A program made the translations under genes and the position numbers. Positions 21,584 through 25,804 of a stretch of 33,993 bases of DNA are shown here, piece by piece (the stretch's first letter is position 1; every line of letters starts with the position of its first letter). Under the pieces are notes generated by a model. That model was given only the letters and a program-made list of their open reading frames with translations, did no database searches and was not told the DNA's origin. Source of the DNA: Candidatus Cloacimonadaceae bacterium (GTDB taxonomy: Bacteria > Cloacimonadota > Cloacimonadia > Cloacimonadales > Cloacimonadaceae). Where the stretch lies: positions 1-33,993 of the forward strand of contig JAUYAR010000053.1 in the NCBI GenBank assembly GCA_030693415.1. Direction: 5' to 3'.

Positions 21584-21627
21584 TTTCGTTTCCGCATGGG
21601 GGCTGCAAGCCGCTCTATCACTTGACA

Positions 21628-21711
21628 GCGTTAATAAAGCCTTAATCAAGCGTTAATCAAGCGTAATAAAACTAACGCTTGATTAACGCTTGATTAAGGC
21701 TTGATTAACGC
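21628..21711. repeat. Word-iterated palindrome, copy 2 (37-bp arms)
   Basis: Arms 21628-21664 and 21675-21711 are complementary at 36 of 37 positions around a 10-nt loop. Each arm is built from repeats of TTAATCAAGCG / TTAATCAAGCC. It is followed after 11 nt by the hairpin at 21723, the mirror image of the arrangement at 11574-11675. Confidence 0.85.
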
Positions 21712-21722
21712 TTTGGATGTGG

Positions 21723-21742: not shown

Positions 21743-21923
21743 GAAGCGAAATAAGAAAGCCAATAATAAAGCCAATATAAAGCCAATAGTGATCTTTCCT
21801 TGGAGTGCCGATAGATAGAGTTTCCACAGAGATGTCATGCGCTACTACATGCGCTACTACTGTTTTGTCCACTACTGTTTTGTACAACCGAATCGGGGTT
21901 CGGCATCCATAATCTCATGGAAC

Positions 21924-21941
21924 GCCGACGTCCCCGTCGGC
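21924..21941. repeat. GCCGACG-TCCC-CGTCGGC hairpin, copy 1
   Basis: Perfect 7-bp stem with a 4-nt loop. Near-identical inverted copies occur at 21999-22016 and 32481-32498 (ACCGACG-GGGA-CGTCGGT). Confidence 0.7.
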
Positions 21942-21998
21942 GATTGTAGCGATGAACTTGACACATCTGCAAATCTGTAAACCATCCTGCGGACAGGA

Positions 21999-22016
21999 AC
22001 CGACGGGGACGTCGGT
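21999..22016. repeat. ACCGACG-GGGA-CGTCGGT hairpin, copy 2
   Basis: Perfect 7-bp stem, identical to 32481-32498 and the reverse-complement type of 21924-21941. Both this copy and the 32-kb copy have GGAACCGACG in front and TCCATA soon after, so the repeated unit is longer than the hairpin. Confidence 0.75.
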
Positions 22017-22152
22017 AATTCCATAGGCGCATAGCCGAATCGGGGTTCGGCATCCATAGTGGGGTGGGGAGTTCGGCAGCCACATGGGGTGCAAAAATCG
22101 GTATCCCAATGGGGTGGGGAATTCCGATTCCTCACAGCCACCCGGTCGGCTA

Positions 22153-22192
22153 CAAAAAAAACAGGTTCGAACCGCTAAAGTCCGAACCTGTT
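22153..22192 (-). terminator. Rho-independent terminator of the dksA-lspA-porV operon
   Basis: On the minus strand AACAGGTTCG pairs perfectly with CGAACCTGTT across a 13-nt loop, and the descending arm runs into a T tract (eight T in all). It is 48 nt after the stop of the small coiled-coil gene and ends the unit that starts at the promoter near 25872. Confidence 0.9.
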
Positions 22193-22240: not shown

Positions 22241-22522
22241 CTAATAGAAGAACAGCTTAACTGCGATGGCGATGAGAATTGCGGAATTGAGCGCCAACCA
22301 GATCTGAAGACGGTTGTTGATCGTCTGAGTGGTTTCCCTGCTTTGCTGCACAGTCTTTTCGAGGCGAACGATGAGGTGTTCGACGGTTGCCAGTTTTTCC
22401 TGAGTTTTGTCAAACTTCTTGATATTGTTGTTATGCCCCGAATCACGTTTGAAGTGTCTGAACAGTTCCCATAGAAGCGGTAAAACGGCGGGGATAAACT
22501 TCTTAATTCCTATGTCTTTCAT
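22241..22522 (-). CDS. Small coiled-coil, C-terminally membrane-anchored protein
   Basis: No family recognised. The 93 residues show an N-terminal part with a hydrophobic/aromatic patch (IPAVLPLLWELF), a basic linker, a heptad-like helix (about 38-70: KTQEKLATVEHLIVRLEKTV), and one C-terminal membrane helix (about 74-92, LQIWLALNSAILIAIAVKLF). The predicted topology is tail-anchored with the coiled coil in the cytoplasm. AAGGAAG lies 7 nt before the ATG. It begins 15 nt after the PorV-like gene stop and is followed by a strong terminator, so it is a real member of that operon. Its role is unknown; it could be an accessory of the export or envelope function encoded just before it. Confidence 0.7.
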   Translation of the reverse strand: MKDIGIKKFIPAVLPLLWELFRHFKRDSGHNNNIKKFDKTQEKLATVEHLIVRLEKTVQQSRETTQTINNRLQIWLALNSAILIAIAVKLFFY

Positions 22523-22537
22523 TTGCTCACTTCCTTA

Positions 22538-23380
22538 TCAGAATTTGTAACCTAAGTTTCCATAAAGAGTTCCGTTTAAAACGGCATGAGTGGTATAGGA
22601 GAGATCAATCACGATGCCTTCGATGTCGAGACCGATGCCGGCATTCCAGGCGGCGGGGTTTTGATGCACGCCAAAGCGGATAAAAAGAGGCTCGAACAAT
22701 CTGGCTTCGACACCGCCCATAAATTCGGTTTCCTGGGCAAAATCCTTCTTCAGCTCGATGGTGGTGGTCACTCCGTCGTATGGGATGTAGGAAATGCCGA
22801 GAGCGAGCTTGCTGGGCAGGTTGTGTTGATTGGTATCGCCCATCACGGCTTGGTTGAAGTTGGTGACCGAGAAACCGAGTTTGGTGCGTCCATGCAGGAG
22901 TGCCGTGGCACCGAGGTCAAATCCAAAGGCGTCGTCGGTTTTTTCGCCGTCAAAACTGAGCAGATAATAATTCGCAGTGTAGCCAACACTAATTTTGGAA
23001 TGGATATCCTCTTGCAGGACAAAGCCATGCGAGGCACTCCAAATCTGTTCGCTCATCAGGTTGACATCGGCAAAATCGACATTGAACATCCTCGTGCCAA
23101 ACGCCAAAGTGCCGATCTTTTTGGGCAATTTAAAACCGATGGCGGCAGTTTGAATCTGGGAAAATCTCTGTCCATAGAGATTGGCAAAACCATACTGGAC
23201 TTCATATTCGGTCTCGGAGAGTCCGGCGGGATTGAAGAAAATGGCATTGACGTCGTCGGCAACGCCGGTGTATGCTCCGCCCATGGCACGCGCCCTGGCG
23301 GAAGGGATATAATCGTCAAAAACGGCGAGTAGCAAAGCTGCCTGAACGAGGATAACGCTGAGCAGTAATATCTTTTTCAT
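22538..23380 (-). CDS. PorV/PorQ-like outer-membrane beta-barrel protein
   Basis: Outer-membrane protein of the PorV/UPF0164 type found in FCB-group bacteria. The 280 residues start with a signal peptide (1-19). The family hallmark follows: SARARAMGGAYTGVADDVNAIFFNPAGL (cited here from 27 onward in two parts, ARAMGGAYTGVADD and AIFFNPAGL). Alternating beta strands then run to a C-terminal aromatic residue (LYGNLGYKF), as barrel proteins have. In T9SS, PorV shuttles cargo to the attachment complex by binding the cargo C-terminal domain. This gene starts 18 nt after a gene whose product has such a C-terminal domain. It is shorter than classical PorV (about 390 residues), so a general role in outer-membrane transport is also possible. 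Confidence 0.8.
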   Translation of the reverse strand: MKKILLLSVILVQAALLLAVFDDYIPSARARAMGGAYTGVADDVNAIFFNPAGLSETEYEVQYGFANLYGQRFSQIQTAAIGFKLPKKIGTLAFGTRMFNVDFADVNLMSEQIWSASHGFVLQEDIHSKISVGYTANYYLLSFDGEKTDDAFGFDLGATALLHGRTKLGFSVTNFNQAVMGDTNQHNLPSKLALGISYIPYDGVTTTIELKKDFAQETEFMGGVEARLFEPLFIRFGVHQNPAAWNAGIGLDIEGIVIDLSYTTHAVLNGTLYGNLGYKF

Positions 23381-23398
23381 AGATCAATCCTCTCCCGG

Positions 23399-24835
23399 TT
23401 ATTTCATTATTGATTTGATCACAATGGGTTGCACGGTCTCTTCCTTGGCGCCGCTGGCACGTTGGATGATCTCGAGATGGCAATAATACATGCCGATCGG
23501 CAAGAGCTTCATATTGGTATCGCGTCCGTCCCAGACAAAGCTTTCGATGCCAAGGGCGTTGCCGATGTTTTTGTTCACAGGGGTGGAAACAAGGCGCCCT
23601 TGAGCGTCATAAATGCGCACGATGGCTTTGGCATTCACGCCGGTGCTGATGGACTTTGTGCCATATTCGATGGTGATCTTTTCGTTGAGGGCGGGGTTGA
23701 AGATATTCTTGCCGTTATGAGCATTGGTGATATTCAGCCAAGCGATGCTGCGCCTGATCGCGGTGAGTATCTTTCCGCTGGTCAGGGAAAGGATCGGCGT
23801 CGTGTCATAGACAAAGGATTGTATCTGGATCACCGCTTCGCCGTAAGTGATCGGTTCCAAGATGAGTTTGATCAGAGTCATATCGTCCGCTGCGGAATTG
23901 ATCGGTTCCTGAGATTGAAAGGTGACCGTGATCAGATCTCCTTCCAGGGAAACTTGGACGTCCGGTTCATGGGATGTCATCGTTTCTACCATATCTACTT
24001 CGTGAAAAAGCACTTTACTTGGATCGATCTTGAAGACTGCGGTGTATGAGGAAACGCCCCAAACCGGTTTGATGCGGGAGGTGAGGACATTGACGGCTAC
24101 CAACTCGTTGATGATACCGGTGGTTGTCTGGATGCCGACGGAAGCGTTTGAAACGTTGTCCACCTGAACCATATCCTGCAAGTCGCGCGGGTTGATGGCA
24201 TAAAAGCTGAAGGAGAAATCCACCACGCCCTGAATCCTTGACCATGATTGACCAACATTGATTGGTGGCCAACTGAATCCAGTGCGCGGAAAGCATTGAT
24301 CGTCCACCTGACAGGCACCGCTGCCATCATTGACGTTGAACTCGCTATAGCTATTGGGGGTGGAGGTCACCGTGACGTCCTGCACGCGAACCAGGACGCT
24401 TTCCCATTGCTCTGCGGTAGCTGCACTAATAAGCTGACTTGTTTTGATCACCGATGGCTGCGGCAGGGGATTTCCCTGGCTCAAAACCTGATAGCCGGTG
24501 GTGGGAGACATTTCTGTCAGGTTAAAGTATTCGACGATCTTGCCTGTTACTTGAACCAGGTCGCCGCGCTGGGGATGATACTGGTTGGTGAATACCAGCA
24601 GTCCGCTCCATGGCCCGCCAGCAGGATCGGAGATAATGAAACCGTAGTTAGTGGCGCTGGTTCCGGTGTAGAACTTTTGCGCAACGACGATTCCCTGGAC
24701 AGTCACGATCTGATCGATCATTGGAGAGTTTCCGCTGGCGGCGGTGGTGTATTGCACATCATAACAGGTGATAACCTGTGCCGCAAGCCCCGTGCTGAGG
24801 AAAACTGCGAGCATCAAAAATAGGAAATGTTTCAT
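23399..24835 (-). CDS. Secreted OB-fold and cohesin-like protein with FlgD/T9SS-type C-terminal domain
   Basis: The 478 residues read as four parts. There is a signal peptide (1-19, ending GLAAQ). An OB-fold nucleic-acid-binding-like region follows (about 25-200: DQIVTVQGIVVAQK, LVQVTGKIVEYF, WESVLVRVQDVTV, FNVNDGSGACQVDD). Next is a beta-rich cohesin-like domain (about 245-365: VSSYTAVFKIDPSKVLFHEV, GDLITVTFQS). Last is a FlgD-Ig-like C-terminus (about 375-478: FNPALNEKITIEYG, VRIYDAQGRLV, FVWDGRDTN, LPIGMYYCHLE), as used for T9SS sorting. The OB part resembles those of secreted nucleases, but no catalytic domain was found. AAGGAG precedes the ATG. It follows lspA by 16 nt. Function unknown; surface adhesion or DNA/polymer binding is a guess. 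Confidence 0.75.
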   Translation of the reverse strand: MKHFLFLMLAVFLSTGLAAQVITCYDVQYTTAASGNSPMIDQIVTVQGIVVAQKFYTGTSATNYGFIISDPAGGPWSGLLVFTNQYHPQRGDLVQVTGKIVEYFNLTEMSPTTGYQVLSQGNPLPQPSVIKTSQLISAATAEQWESVLVRVQDVTVTSTPNSYSEFNVNDGSGACQVDDQCFPRTGFSWPPINVGQSWSRIQGVVDFSFSFYAINPRDLQDMVQVDNVSNASVGIQTTTGIINELVAVNVLTSRIKPVWGVSSYTAVFKIDPSKVLFHEVDMVETMTSHEPDVQVSLEGDLITVTFQSQEPINSAADDMTLIKLILEPITYGEAVIQIQSFVYDTTPILSLTSGKILTAIRRSIAWLNITNAHNGKNIFNPALNEKITIEYGTKSISTGVNAKAIVRIYDAQGRLVSTPVNKNIGNALGIESFVWDGRDTNMKLLPIGMYYCHLEIIQRASGAKEETVQPIVIKSIMK

Positions 24836-24851
24836 CTATGACTCCTTCATT

Positions 24852-25394
24852 TTAACTATTGTCTGGTTTTTCCTGCAGATCCGATGCAGGCGTGAGAGCT
24901 TTTTCTTCCCGGATAAAGATCATATCAATCATCATCAGCACCATGGCGATAAAAACGGCGCTGTCCGCGATATTGAACACTGGCCAACGATACATGATAA
25001 AATCTGGAAAATCAACGTCGATAAAATCGGTTACTCCACCCAAAAGGACACGGTCTATCATATTGCCGAGAGCGCCTCCCAAGACCAATCCGAAGGCATA
25101 CACCTGGATTCGGTGGGTGACCCGCTTCAGCAAAAATATAATAAAACCAATTGCGACAAGCGCAATCAGAGAAAATATGATCCGGTTATAGAGCGGGTTT
25201 GAGAGTCCGATGCTGAAAGCGGCTCCGGTATTGGTCAAGTGGGTGAACCGAAAGGTTTCGCCAAAGAGTTTTTCGCCGATCACAAAGGTATCCCCTTCCG
25301 CGGTATATAGACGCGTGAGGACTTTTGACGCCTGATCGAAGACGACCACTATCAGCATGATCACATAGGCAATGGTGGGTTTGATCGCTTTCAT
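24852..25394 (-). CDS. lspA: Lipoprotein signal peptidase (signal peptidase II)
   Basis: Inner-membrane aspartic protease that cleaves the signal peptide of prolipoproteins before the lipidated Cys. The 180 residues have four hydrophobic segments. The two catalytic Asp lie in GNMIDR (D114) and FNIADSAVFIAM (D144), and the TNTGAAFS loop is also conserved. The open frame extends to 25520 within the upstream gene. ATG at 25392-25394 is taken because family homology begins there and it follows the upstream stop by 8 nt. A GTG four codons earlier is possible. The C-terminus has a short charged tail. It is cotranscribed with the DksA-like gene, a pairing common in bacteria. Confidence 0.95.
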   Translation of the reverse strand: MKAIKPTIAYVIMLIVVVFDQASKVLTRLYTAEGDTFVIGEKLFGETFRFTHLTNTGAAFSIGLSNPLYNRIIFSLIALVAIGFIIFLLKRVTHRIQVYAFGLVLGGALGNMIDRVLLGGVTDFIDVDFPDFIMYRWPVFNIADSAVFIAMVLMMIDMIFIREEKALTPASDLQEKPDNS

Positions 25395-25402
25395 CAGGGA
25401 AT

Positions 25403-25804
25403 TCACCTTCTTTGCCGGCGTTTTTTTTCTTCCATCTTTTCCTTGCAAGTAATGCAATAGACGGCGTAGGGGATGATGTCCAGCCGGGCTTCGGAAATGC
25501 CGGTTCCGCACATTTCGCAAATGCCGTAGTTGCCGTCGTAGAGCCTGCGCAGAGAGTCGTTTAGCAGCCTGATCTTATCTCGTTCCTGCTCCATCATCAT
25601 CACGGTTTGTTCCATCAAATTGGTGTCCGAACCCTGATCCGCTTGGTGAAACGCATAGGAGGAAAGATCACCGCTGCTTTCGCGGGCGCCGATACTTTGG
25701 TCTTTATTGGCGTCGCTCAGATATGCCACGCTCTCTTGCAGTTCCTTCCTGATCACTTCTTCATAGTGTTTCAGTCTTTCCGGTGTCAAAGGTATTGCTG
25801 CCAT
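25403..25804 (-). CDS. DksA/TraR-type zinc finger protein
   Basis: Small coiled-coil/zinc-finger protein of the group that binds in the secondary channel of RNA polymerase; relatives act with ppGpp on stable-RNA and stress promoters. In 133 residues a long helical part (to about 90, with PLTPERLKHYEEVIRKEL) is followed by the C4 finger: C96, C99, C117 and C120 in CEMCG...YCITC. The tip between the two helices carries DxxxxA-type residues that would need a structure-based alignment to judge. GGAG lies just before the ATG, and a strong promoter lies 41 nt upstream. It is the first gene of the lspA-porV operon. Confidence 0.85.
   Translation of the reverse strand: MAAIPLTPERLKHYEEVIRKELQESVAYLSDANKDQSIGARESSGDLSSYAFHQADQGSDTNLMEQTVMMMEQERDKIRLLNDSLRRLYDGNYGICEMCGTGISEARLDIIPYAVYCITCKEKMEEKKRRQRR

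Follow-up and report, generated by a model that had tools for sequence, protein, structure and literature searches.

In the attachment complex of Porphyromonas, the surface proteins PorU and PorZ are described as held on the surface by the barrels PorV and PorQ (PMC5562754), and the C-terminal domains (CTDs) of the type IX secretion system (T9SS) are reported to measure 96 residues in PorZ, 108 in PorU, and 67 to 88 in processed cargos (PMC11285876). For type A CTDs, one PorV in common use is reported (PMC12618676); type B cargos are reported to need a barrel encoded directly downstream (PMC12618676) and to remain bound to that barrel (PMC9143113). In Riemerella, a DUF5689 surface protein, the barrel of its operon, and a helix-hairpin-helix (HhH) protein are each described as essential for transformation (PMC8459023). 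Here, we analyze a 33,993-nucleotide stretch of DNA (the window), which lies on contig C53 of the 2.8-Mb genome (completeness, 99.8%) of a Candidatus Cloacimonadaceae bacterium. In it a putative T9SS-type secreted protein (the cargo; 478 residues; 23399..24835), a PorV/PorQ-family outer-membrane barrel (280 residues; 22538..23380), and a 93-residue small protein (22241..22522) are encoded head to tail on the minus strand, as are all features located below by coordinates on the trio or its gene run. Gene order, conservation, the folds of the barrel and of the cohesin part of the cargo, and family matches are what the analysis shows, and the explanation that we favor overall, with moderate confidence, is that cargo and barrel form a cognate T9SS surface-display pair.

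The locus resembles PorQ:PorZ and PorV:PorU in combining a PorV/PorQ-type barrel with a CTD-bearing surface protein, which in our case would be held in the same way, and the likeness extends to a long CTD, the window's cargo having about 100 residues from FNP to its end. PorQ:PorZ and PorV:PorU, however, are core T9SS parts, whereas the window's barrel appears to be an extra paralogue that lies beside an OB/cohesin gene and is missing from some genomes in which SprA is retained. Type B CTDs with their SprF/PorP barrels share with our locus a barrel gene directly downstream of the cargo, a barrel that is cognate (in our case, probably so), and adhesin-like surface proteins (PMC12618676, PMC9143113); they differ in that the window's barrel matches PorV/PorQ and no PorP/SprF model, and in that the CTD is FlgD-Ig/PorU-like and scores below the CHU_C cut-off. 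The Riemerella set (RS04920, DUF5689; RS04915, barrel; RS02645, HhH) is alike, by description, in having a surface protein beside an outer-membrane barrel together with an HhH protein; that HhH protein is placed in the periplasm, and no CTD or PorV-type barrel is mentioned for the set in the available part of the account (PMC8459023). A Riemerella-style linkage of HhH to surface protein and barrel was seen in family f12 and in records from other phyla; the window's own genome carries its HhH gene on another contig, C94.

Cognate cargo-barrel pairs are known, then, for type B CTDs with SprF/PorP. New here is a PorV/PorQ-type barrel, and new as well is that, in loci of other families and of other phyla, the pair is followed by genes for a ComEA-like HhH protein and a FadL-like barrel, joined in some loci by one for a 5'-nucleotidase, which hints at capture of nucleic acid. 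Searches of an open-license literature library gave no account of the cargo-barrel pair or of the wider cluster, and none among the papers listed joined T9SS and DNA uptake. If our explanation is true, the tie between a PorV/PorQ-type barrel and a single long CTD, repeated in several pairs of one genome, would make T9SS sorting by private barrels wider than the picture of one shared PorV.

Conservation of the cargo and barrel genes

The first-pass annotation had read the three genes as a candidate export module closed by a strong terminator. The three open reading frames (ORFs), the gaps of 18 nt between cargo and barrel and of 15 nt between barrel and small protein, and the terminator-like hairpin are all confirmed by ORF listing and a hairpin scan. 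In hand counts, 92 of 117 genomes of the class have a clear orthologue of the barrel, including those in which a contig end truncates it, and two more have contig-end traces. Within the window's own family (Cloacimonadota, 47 genomes) the barrel was found in 42; the cargo gene lies beside it in 41 of these, as does the small-protein gene, the exceptions (G096 for the cargo, G073 for the small protein) being contig ends. Four genomes of this family (G010, G041, G057, and G114) keep SprA and have neither barrel nor small protein nor a full-length cargo score: their best cargo matches (E, 3e-5, 1.6e-27, 4e-29, and 8e-9, respectively) do not rise above paralogue level, and the first three are 90 to 99% complete and G114 72%. 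A fifth genome of the family without the barrel, G107, has the small protein at a contig end. Relatives of the window are named Candidatus Cloacimonadota, and barrel identity with Syntrophosphaera thermopropionivorans is 74%.

In a second collection, which shares many genomes with the first, so that the counts are not independent, a CTD ORF lies immediately upstream of the barrel in 48 of the 54 best relatives (L104-L157), among them loci in records named Zixibacteria (L155), Gemmatimonadota (L152 and L156), and Endomicrobiia (L157). The six misses comprise two contig ends (L115, L153), two loci with another small ORF upstream (L140 and L141, read no further upstream than that adjacent ORF), and two in which the CTD gene lies further upstream (L149, L151). 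Among 25 weaker loci (L158-L182), faint CTD matches (0.00025 to 0.018) occur upstream in three only. The neighbor relation on which the idea of a module depended is borne out, for cargo and small protein within the family and for the cargo-barrel pair in other phyla.

Three observations weigh against reading a special link into this adjacency. In those class loci that were read, the pair follows lspA within a recurring pnp-dksA-lspA-cargo-barrel run, so that adjacency within the class partly reflects one stable gene run. A mirror-tree comparison (17 loci plus our own; controls lspA, dksA, and pnp) gave a partial r of 0.51 for barrel and CTD versus 0.50 for barrel and lspA and 0.43 for barrel and dksA, no signal beyond lspA. 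Finally, in two loci (L092:4369-5078 and L094:3392-4107) cargo and barrel are separated by two small ORFs, which by eye resemble MNT/HEPN. That the genes are co-located only as a product of the stable lspA run in the phylum, with no special functional link, is nevertheless very improbable in our estimate: no lspA or dksA match was found in the three differently named loci with sequence upstream of the cargo (L149, L154, and L155), the genes are jointly absent from the four family genomes named above, and the front of the cargo is swapped while the CTD is kept. We consider it probable that cargo and barrel are cognate partners.

The sorting domain, the barrel, and the T9SS of the genome

The most conserved part of the cargo is its T9SS sorting domain (residues 362-478; 23402..23752), a FlgD/PorU-like C-terminal domain of long PorU-like form by profile and fold match (PorU 6za2_B: Z, 12.3; root mean square deviation [rmsd], 2.4; 102 residues aligned). 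A phmmer search of the PDB with the cargo returned FlgD (E, 0.0032). The Lbeta3beta4 glycine, reported as required in RgpB (PMC11285876), is G413 here and is invariant in 27 cargos. The cargo in this way combines the two marks of a T9SS CTD substrate, a C-terminal Ig-like sorting domain with the Lbeta3beta4 glycine and a hydrophobic N-terminus (stretch at residues 4-22), within which we place by eye a signal peptide (residues 1-20; 24776..24835; cleavage after GLAA, before Q) and no canonical lipobox.

The sorting domain falls below the type A cut-offs (TIGR04183, 17.4 bits versus 23; PF18962, 16.6 versus 27), so the cargo stands outside the genome's 89 Por_Secre_tail matches, and it misses the cut-off of CHU_C (PF13585), which we take to be the type B CTD (16.2 bits versus 27). 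A profile, A2, built from 30 such domains of the cargo family, so that part of the cargo's own lead arises by construction, gave 147.7 bits on the window's cargo and at most 52.6 on the genome's 76 other matches; 74 of those 76 end at or before position 94 of the 108 in the profile, one ends at 98, and PorU's own at 103. After the GxY motif, the window's cargo has 28 residues, and 15 of 18 compared rows (17 genes, one C182 gene being entered twice; one row from G002) have 18 or 19. The three rows with 21, 22, and 23 residues all lie directly upstream of PorV-family barrels.

The barrel, called from its ORF, a family match, and a structure model, has 14 strands (mean predicted local distance difference test score [pLDDT], 91). 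It is a clear relative of the PorV/PorQ family under the curated line (NF033709; E, 1.4e-20; 74.2 bits versus a cut-off of 90). Its best solved matches are two PorV chains (8gl6_F: Z, 32.1; rmsd, 2.0; 6h3i_F: Z, 31.7; rmsd, 1.9), and Foldseek also ranks PorV first. No PorP/SprF model was among its matches at E ≤ 1, and a PDB phmmer search with the barrel gave no match. Two points count against this assignment, namely, that the FadL chain 2r88_A is tied with PorV on Z (31.2; rmsd, 2.8 versus 2.0) and that FilD, a FadL-type NCBIfam model, matches weakly (0.08). With FadL/TodX-family chains at Z 27 to 31, they raise the alternative that the barrel is a FadL-like transporter of small molecules, nucleosides for example, with the cargo as its surface binding partner and no cargo-shuttle relation between them. 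BamG is reported to show that FadL-like barrels can hold surface proteins (PMC12578637), nucleotide genes occur in the wider cluster described below, and tdk- and pnp-like genes, so named by eye, stand in the same gene run as the trio. We think this alternative quite unlikely: the sequence family is PorV/PorQ, Toluene_X (PF03349) has no match to the barrel at E ≤ 1 but does match the second barrel of the HhH cluster, and it is a T9SS sorting domain that is most conserved in the cargo. The PorV-type barrel of the first-pass annotation is upheld by sequence grouping, with PorV as the closest solved structure although FadL is tied on Z; a grouping with FadL-type transporters, which the same annotation had named as damaging to its proposal, appears as that tie and, in the sequence, as the weak FilD match.

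The genome encodes the SprA translocon (TIGR04189; 428.9 bits over frame, cut-off 200; C31), PorU (602.5 bits), and nine PorV-family genes (10 matches, the one on C94 being a weak match of the FadL/Toluene_X type). Better PorV-like (L205; 1.1e-26) and PorQ-like (L204; 3.5e-40) candidates, both below curated lines, lie elsewhere in the genome, and by these sequence scores the window's barrel is an extra PorV/PorQ-family paralogue. For at least four of the nine PorV-family genes (on C53, C45, C80, and C178), judged by the listed ORF starts, the distance to a CTD gene upstream is 18 nt or less. The chance of at least four of nine barrels lying beside CTD genes is 2e-4, assuming 2400 genes and 91 CTD genes. 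The suggestion that a barrel serving one cargo is a single special case therefore has to be corrected.

Two loci of this genome deserve mention. On C80 (L209) a second PorU-like protein is encoded directly upstream of a barrel whose best match is NCBI's putative PorV2, and on C20 (L203:1065-5187), a fifth case, a weak PorZ-like C-terminus (0.00096) is encoded directly upstream of a PorV/PorQ-family barrel.

Under the surface-display explanation, the cargo would pass the inner membrane by means of its signal peptide and then use SprA to cross the outer membrane, its long PorU-like CTD would be taken up by the PorV/PorQ-type barrel encoded by the next gene, and the barrel would keep it on the surface without covalent attachment, like PorQ-PorZ and PorV-PorU in Porphyromonas. 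Stable anchoring of this kind seems to us slightly likelier than transient shuttling. The barrel might instead be a transient, shared shuttle of the PorV kind, one that picks the cargo up at SprA and hands it over for cleavage by the PorU sortase; PorU is present, PorV is the nearest structure to the barrel, and ordinary CTDs exceed barrels (89 Por_Secre_tail matches versus nine PorV-family genes). Yet L205 and L204 are better candidates for PorV and PorQ, the window's CTD stands apart from the rest by its score and its length, and cargo and barrel are paired across phyla, all of which makes a shared shuttle unlikely. Against anchoring itself stand an ordinary-length tail (19 residues after GxY) in the barrel-paired cargo of C178, a PorU-profile match that is unspecific, in that many ordinary CTDs of the genome score higher, and a PorZ-kind hairpin insertion that is reported not to have blocked cleavage in Porphyromonas (PMC11285876). 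PorU-likeness was dropped as proof of non-cleavage, since the PorU profile also picks up ordinary CTDs and a hairpin of the PorZ type does not settle the matter; only the greater length was kept. The private shuttle or anchor proposed at first is well supported in that the pair is conserved and the CTD is the one part of the cargo to remain beside the barrel; we infer the relation itself from these patterns, and similar pairs recur in the genome.

The variable front of the cargo and the wider gene cluster

Ahead of the sorting domain lie a front part of the ExeM/NucH extracellular DNase type, probably an OB fold (residues about 43-222; 24170..24709), and a cohesin-fold domain (residues 226-361; 23753..24160). 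Residues 46-169 match the first part of the ExeM/NucH model NF033681 (E, 5.7e-12), presumably an OB fold, and PF01336 (OB) matches weakly (E, 0.075). The fold comparison covers residues 226-476, and the OB call for the front part rests on sequence matches, so that the OB fold named in the first-pass annotation is favored on weaker ground than the cohesin-like part, which is borne out by 5nrm_A (Z, 16.2; rmsd, 1.9; 124 residues aligned). No cohesin Pfam matched the cargo sequence. Extracellular DNases of the ExeM/NucH type are like the cargo over residues 46-169 and unlike it in their nuclease domain; no nuclease domain was found in the cargo by Pfam scan.

This front is not constant. Cargo ORFs in 20 loci, 18 of them outside the window's family, range from 412 to 1074 residues, and the window's CTD region was matched in all 20. 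Ten scanned orthologous cargos are mixtures of OB, lamin-tail, Big_5, and chitobiase-type modules with no catalytic domain over cut-off; PF01336 is over cut-off in three (L088, L091, and L097), further along than the window's front part, and DUF5689 matches two below cut-off (1.6e-5 and 1.7e-4). Because the front part varies across loci and the CTD is kept, the OB-cohesin unit is, on this comparison of sequences, a module, and the constant partner of the barrel is the CTD. An OB fold plus cohesin without a catalytic domain, once singled out as unusual, is the local version of a fast-changing front part. In G002, a paralogue (L212:3981-6704) has the same OB-cohesin front (42% identity over residues 2-356) together with a metallophosphoesterase and an ordinary sorting domain.

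A cohesin fold at Z 16.2, and the report of cellulosome-like parts in Ca. Stygibacter (PMC8542988), would accord with a trio that acts as a scaffoldin-like anchor for dockerin-bearing enzymes. To this we give scarcely any credence: the dockerin-like partners proposed at first come down to a single match in the genome (C37), in a protein that carries a CTD itself; in cargos from other families the middle mostly fails to align with the cohesin part, and the scan of 10 cargos named no cohesin.

In family f12 and the records from other phyla, the next long gene after the pair encodes a ComEA-like HHH_3 protein of about 800-870 residues. By eye it is probably an outer-membrane protein (signal-like start; terminal aromatic residue in several), and in PDB phmmer searches it matched an EEP-family protein (6e-4) and ComEA (0.064). 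It follows the pair in all seven loci not named Cloacimonadota (L149, L151, L152, and L154-L157); L154 is named only bacterium, and L135, labelled Armatimonadota, was left out as the same contig as class genome G108. A FadL-like second barrel comes after it in five of the six continuing loci (L151, L152, L154, L155, and L156; L149 ends after HhH), and a 5'-nucleotidase is next in three of the four that continue (L151, L154, and L155; 5_nucleotid_C up to 2.4e-35; L152 ends after the second barrel). Among the 15 f12 genomes with HhH, the barrel lies within 2 kb of it in 14, and the remaining one has the gene at a contig start.

Pair and neighbors together suggest a surface device that catches DNA or nucleotides. 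A nucleic-acid role for the displayed front part, which may bind nucleic acid or nucleotides, is in our view plausible at a little short of even, given the ExeM/NucH type of that part, the HhH and nucleotidase neighbors elsewhere, and the Riemerella precedent. The DNA- or polymer-binding hint of the first-pass annotation is favored to this extent; the corresponding genes of the window's own genome are unlinked. There, the gene set appears split, with HhH, second barrel, and nucleotidase together on C94, apart from the trio. Other points also speak against the device: in L157 the ORF that follows HhH does not match the second barrel, in L156 the ORF behind that barrel has no nucleotidase match, DUF5689 has no match to the window's own cargo at E ≤ 1, and 16 genomes carry HhH without the barrel. 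ComEC, present in the genome, is matched as well in 10 of 14 control genomes and was dropped as non-specific support for DNA uptake.

Across the 117 genomes, HhH is matched in 108 (weakly in G063) and is wider than the trio. When the contig-end remnants in G107 (small protein) and G082 (barrel fragment) are counted as barrel present and the weak HhH of G063 as absent, 91 genomes by hand count have barrel and HhH, 3 the barrel only (G023, G063, and G115), 16 HhH only, and 7 neither (Fisher p, 3.9e-4, without correction for kinship or completeness). In view of the 16 and the 3, we dropped the idea that trio and HhH strictly depend on each other. The system may originally have worked with the ComEA-like HhH protein, the FadL-like barrel, and the 5'-nucleotidase, which in this genome form a second cluster.

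A broader scheme, which we offer as doubtful, is that several phyla around the FCB group possess a pilus-free outer-membrane machine for DNA capture and uptake or scavenging, in which a T9SS-displayed OB-fold protein on its own PorV-type barrel would hand DNA to a ComEA-like HhH outer-membrane protein, with a FadL-like barrel, a 5'-nucleotidase, and inner-membrane ComEC. To our knowledge, the catching and import of extracellular DNA outside pilus systems is largely an open question, and the HhH protein, second barrel, and 5'-nucleotidase, a compact gene set, would be a concrete candidate for it in this bacterial group.

Two related arrangements were seen in passing. On C94 of the window's genome (L210:523-6235), the ComEA-like HhH protein, FadL-like barrel, and 5'-nucleotidase are encoded in a row, with the same order in L213 and L214. 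In two WOR-3 loci (L169 and L173), a barrel of 24 to 25% identity lies beside an HHH_3-type protein (profile match in L169, where barrel identity is 24%), and no CTD cargo was seen upstream.

The small protein and the surrounding DNA

The small protein is a coiled coil by eye (DUF7365 weak, 0.03) with one strongly hydrophobic stretch, a C-terminal membrane stretch at residues 74-92, and no signal peptide by eye. Of the tail-anchored coiled coil first described, the membrane stretch stands and the coiled coil remains a call by eye. Matches to known families are weak only (EMP24, 0.0012), and membership in one was dropped for that reason. It was matched in 75 of the 117 class genomes, is encoded apart from the barrel in some of the order, is more distant in f12 (4e-10 to 2e-5), and was absent from the loci of non-Cloacimonadota names searched with its profile. 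Seen only in loci of the Cloacimonadota class, at times away from the barrel, and with no signal peptide by eye, it probably plays no part in the export step. The export module proposed for the trio holds, then, as far as the small protein's conserved place beside the barrel in the window's own family, and it probably excludes from export itself the small protein, which might be a Cloacimonadota addition, perhaps an inner-membrane or cytoplasmic accessory.

The upstream neighbor of the trio is lspA (24852..25520, minus strand), whose listed ORF start is probably too far upstream. It ends 16 nt ahead of the cargo gene, which makes the trio the tail of a longer gene run. We assigned the names lspA, dksA, pnp, yggT, divIVA, and tdk by eye. 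The run is closed by an intrinsic-terminator-like hairpin (22160..22192, minus strand, read from 22192 to 22160) with 14 pairs, of which 6 are G-C, and six T; the terminator scan gave 7 sites versus 6.9 in shuffles, so that this hairpin is singled out by its strength only. Beyond it, the gap at 21888-22124 is rich in repeats, among them a direct repeat of 24 nt and one pair of GC-rich inverted repeats of 16 nt, and an inverted repeat between the redoxin gene and the trio (21627-21714) has 38-nt arms that are 97% complementary and is made up of an 11-nt tandem unit.

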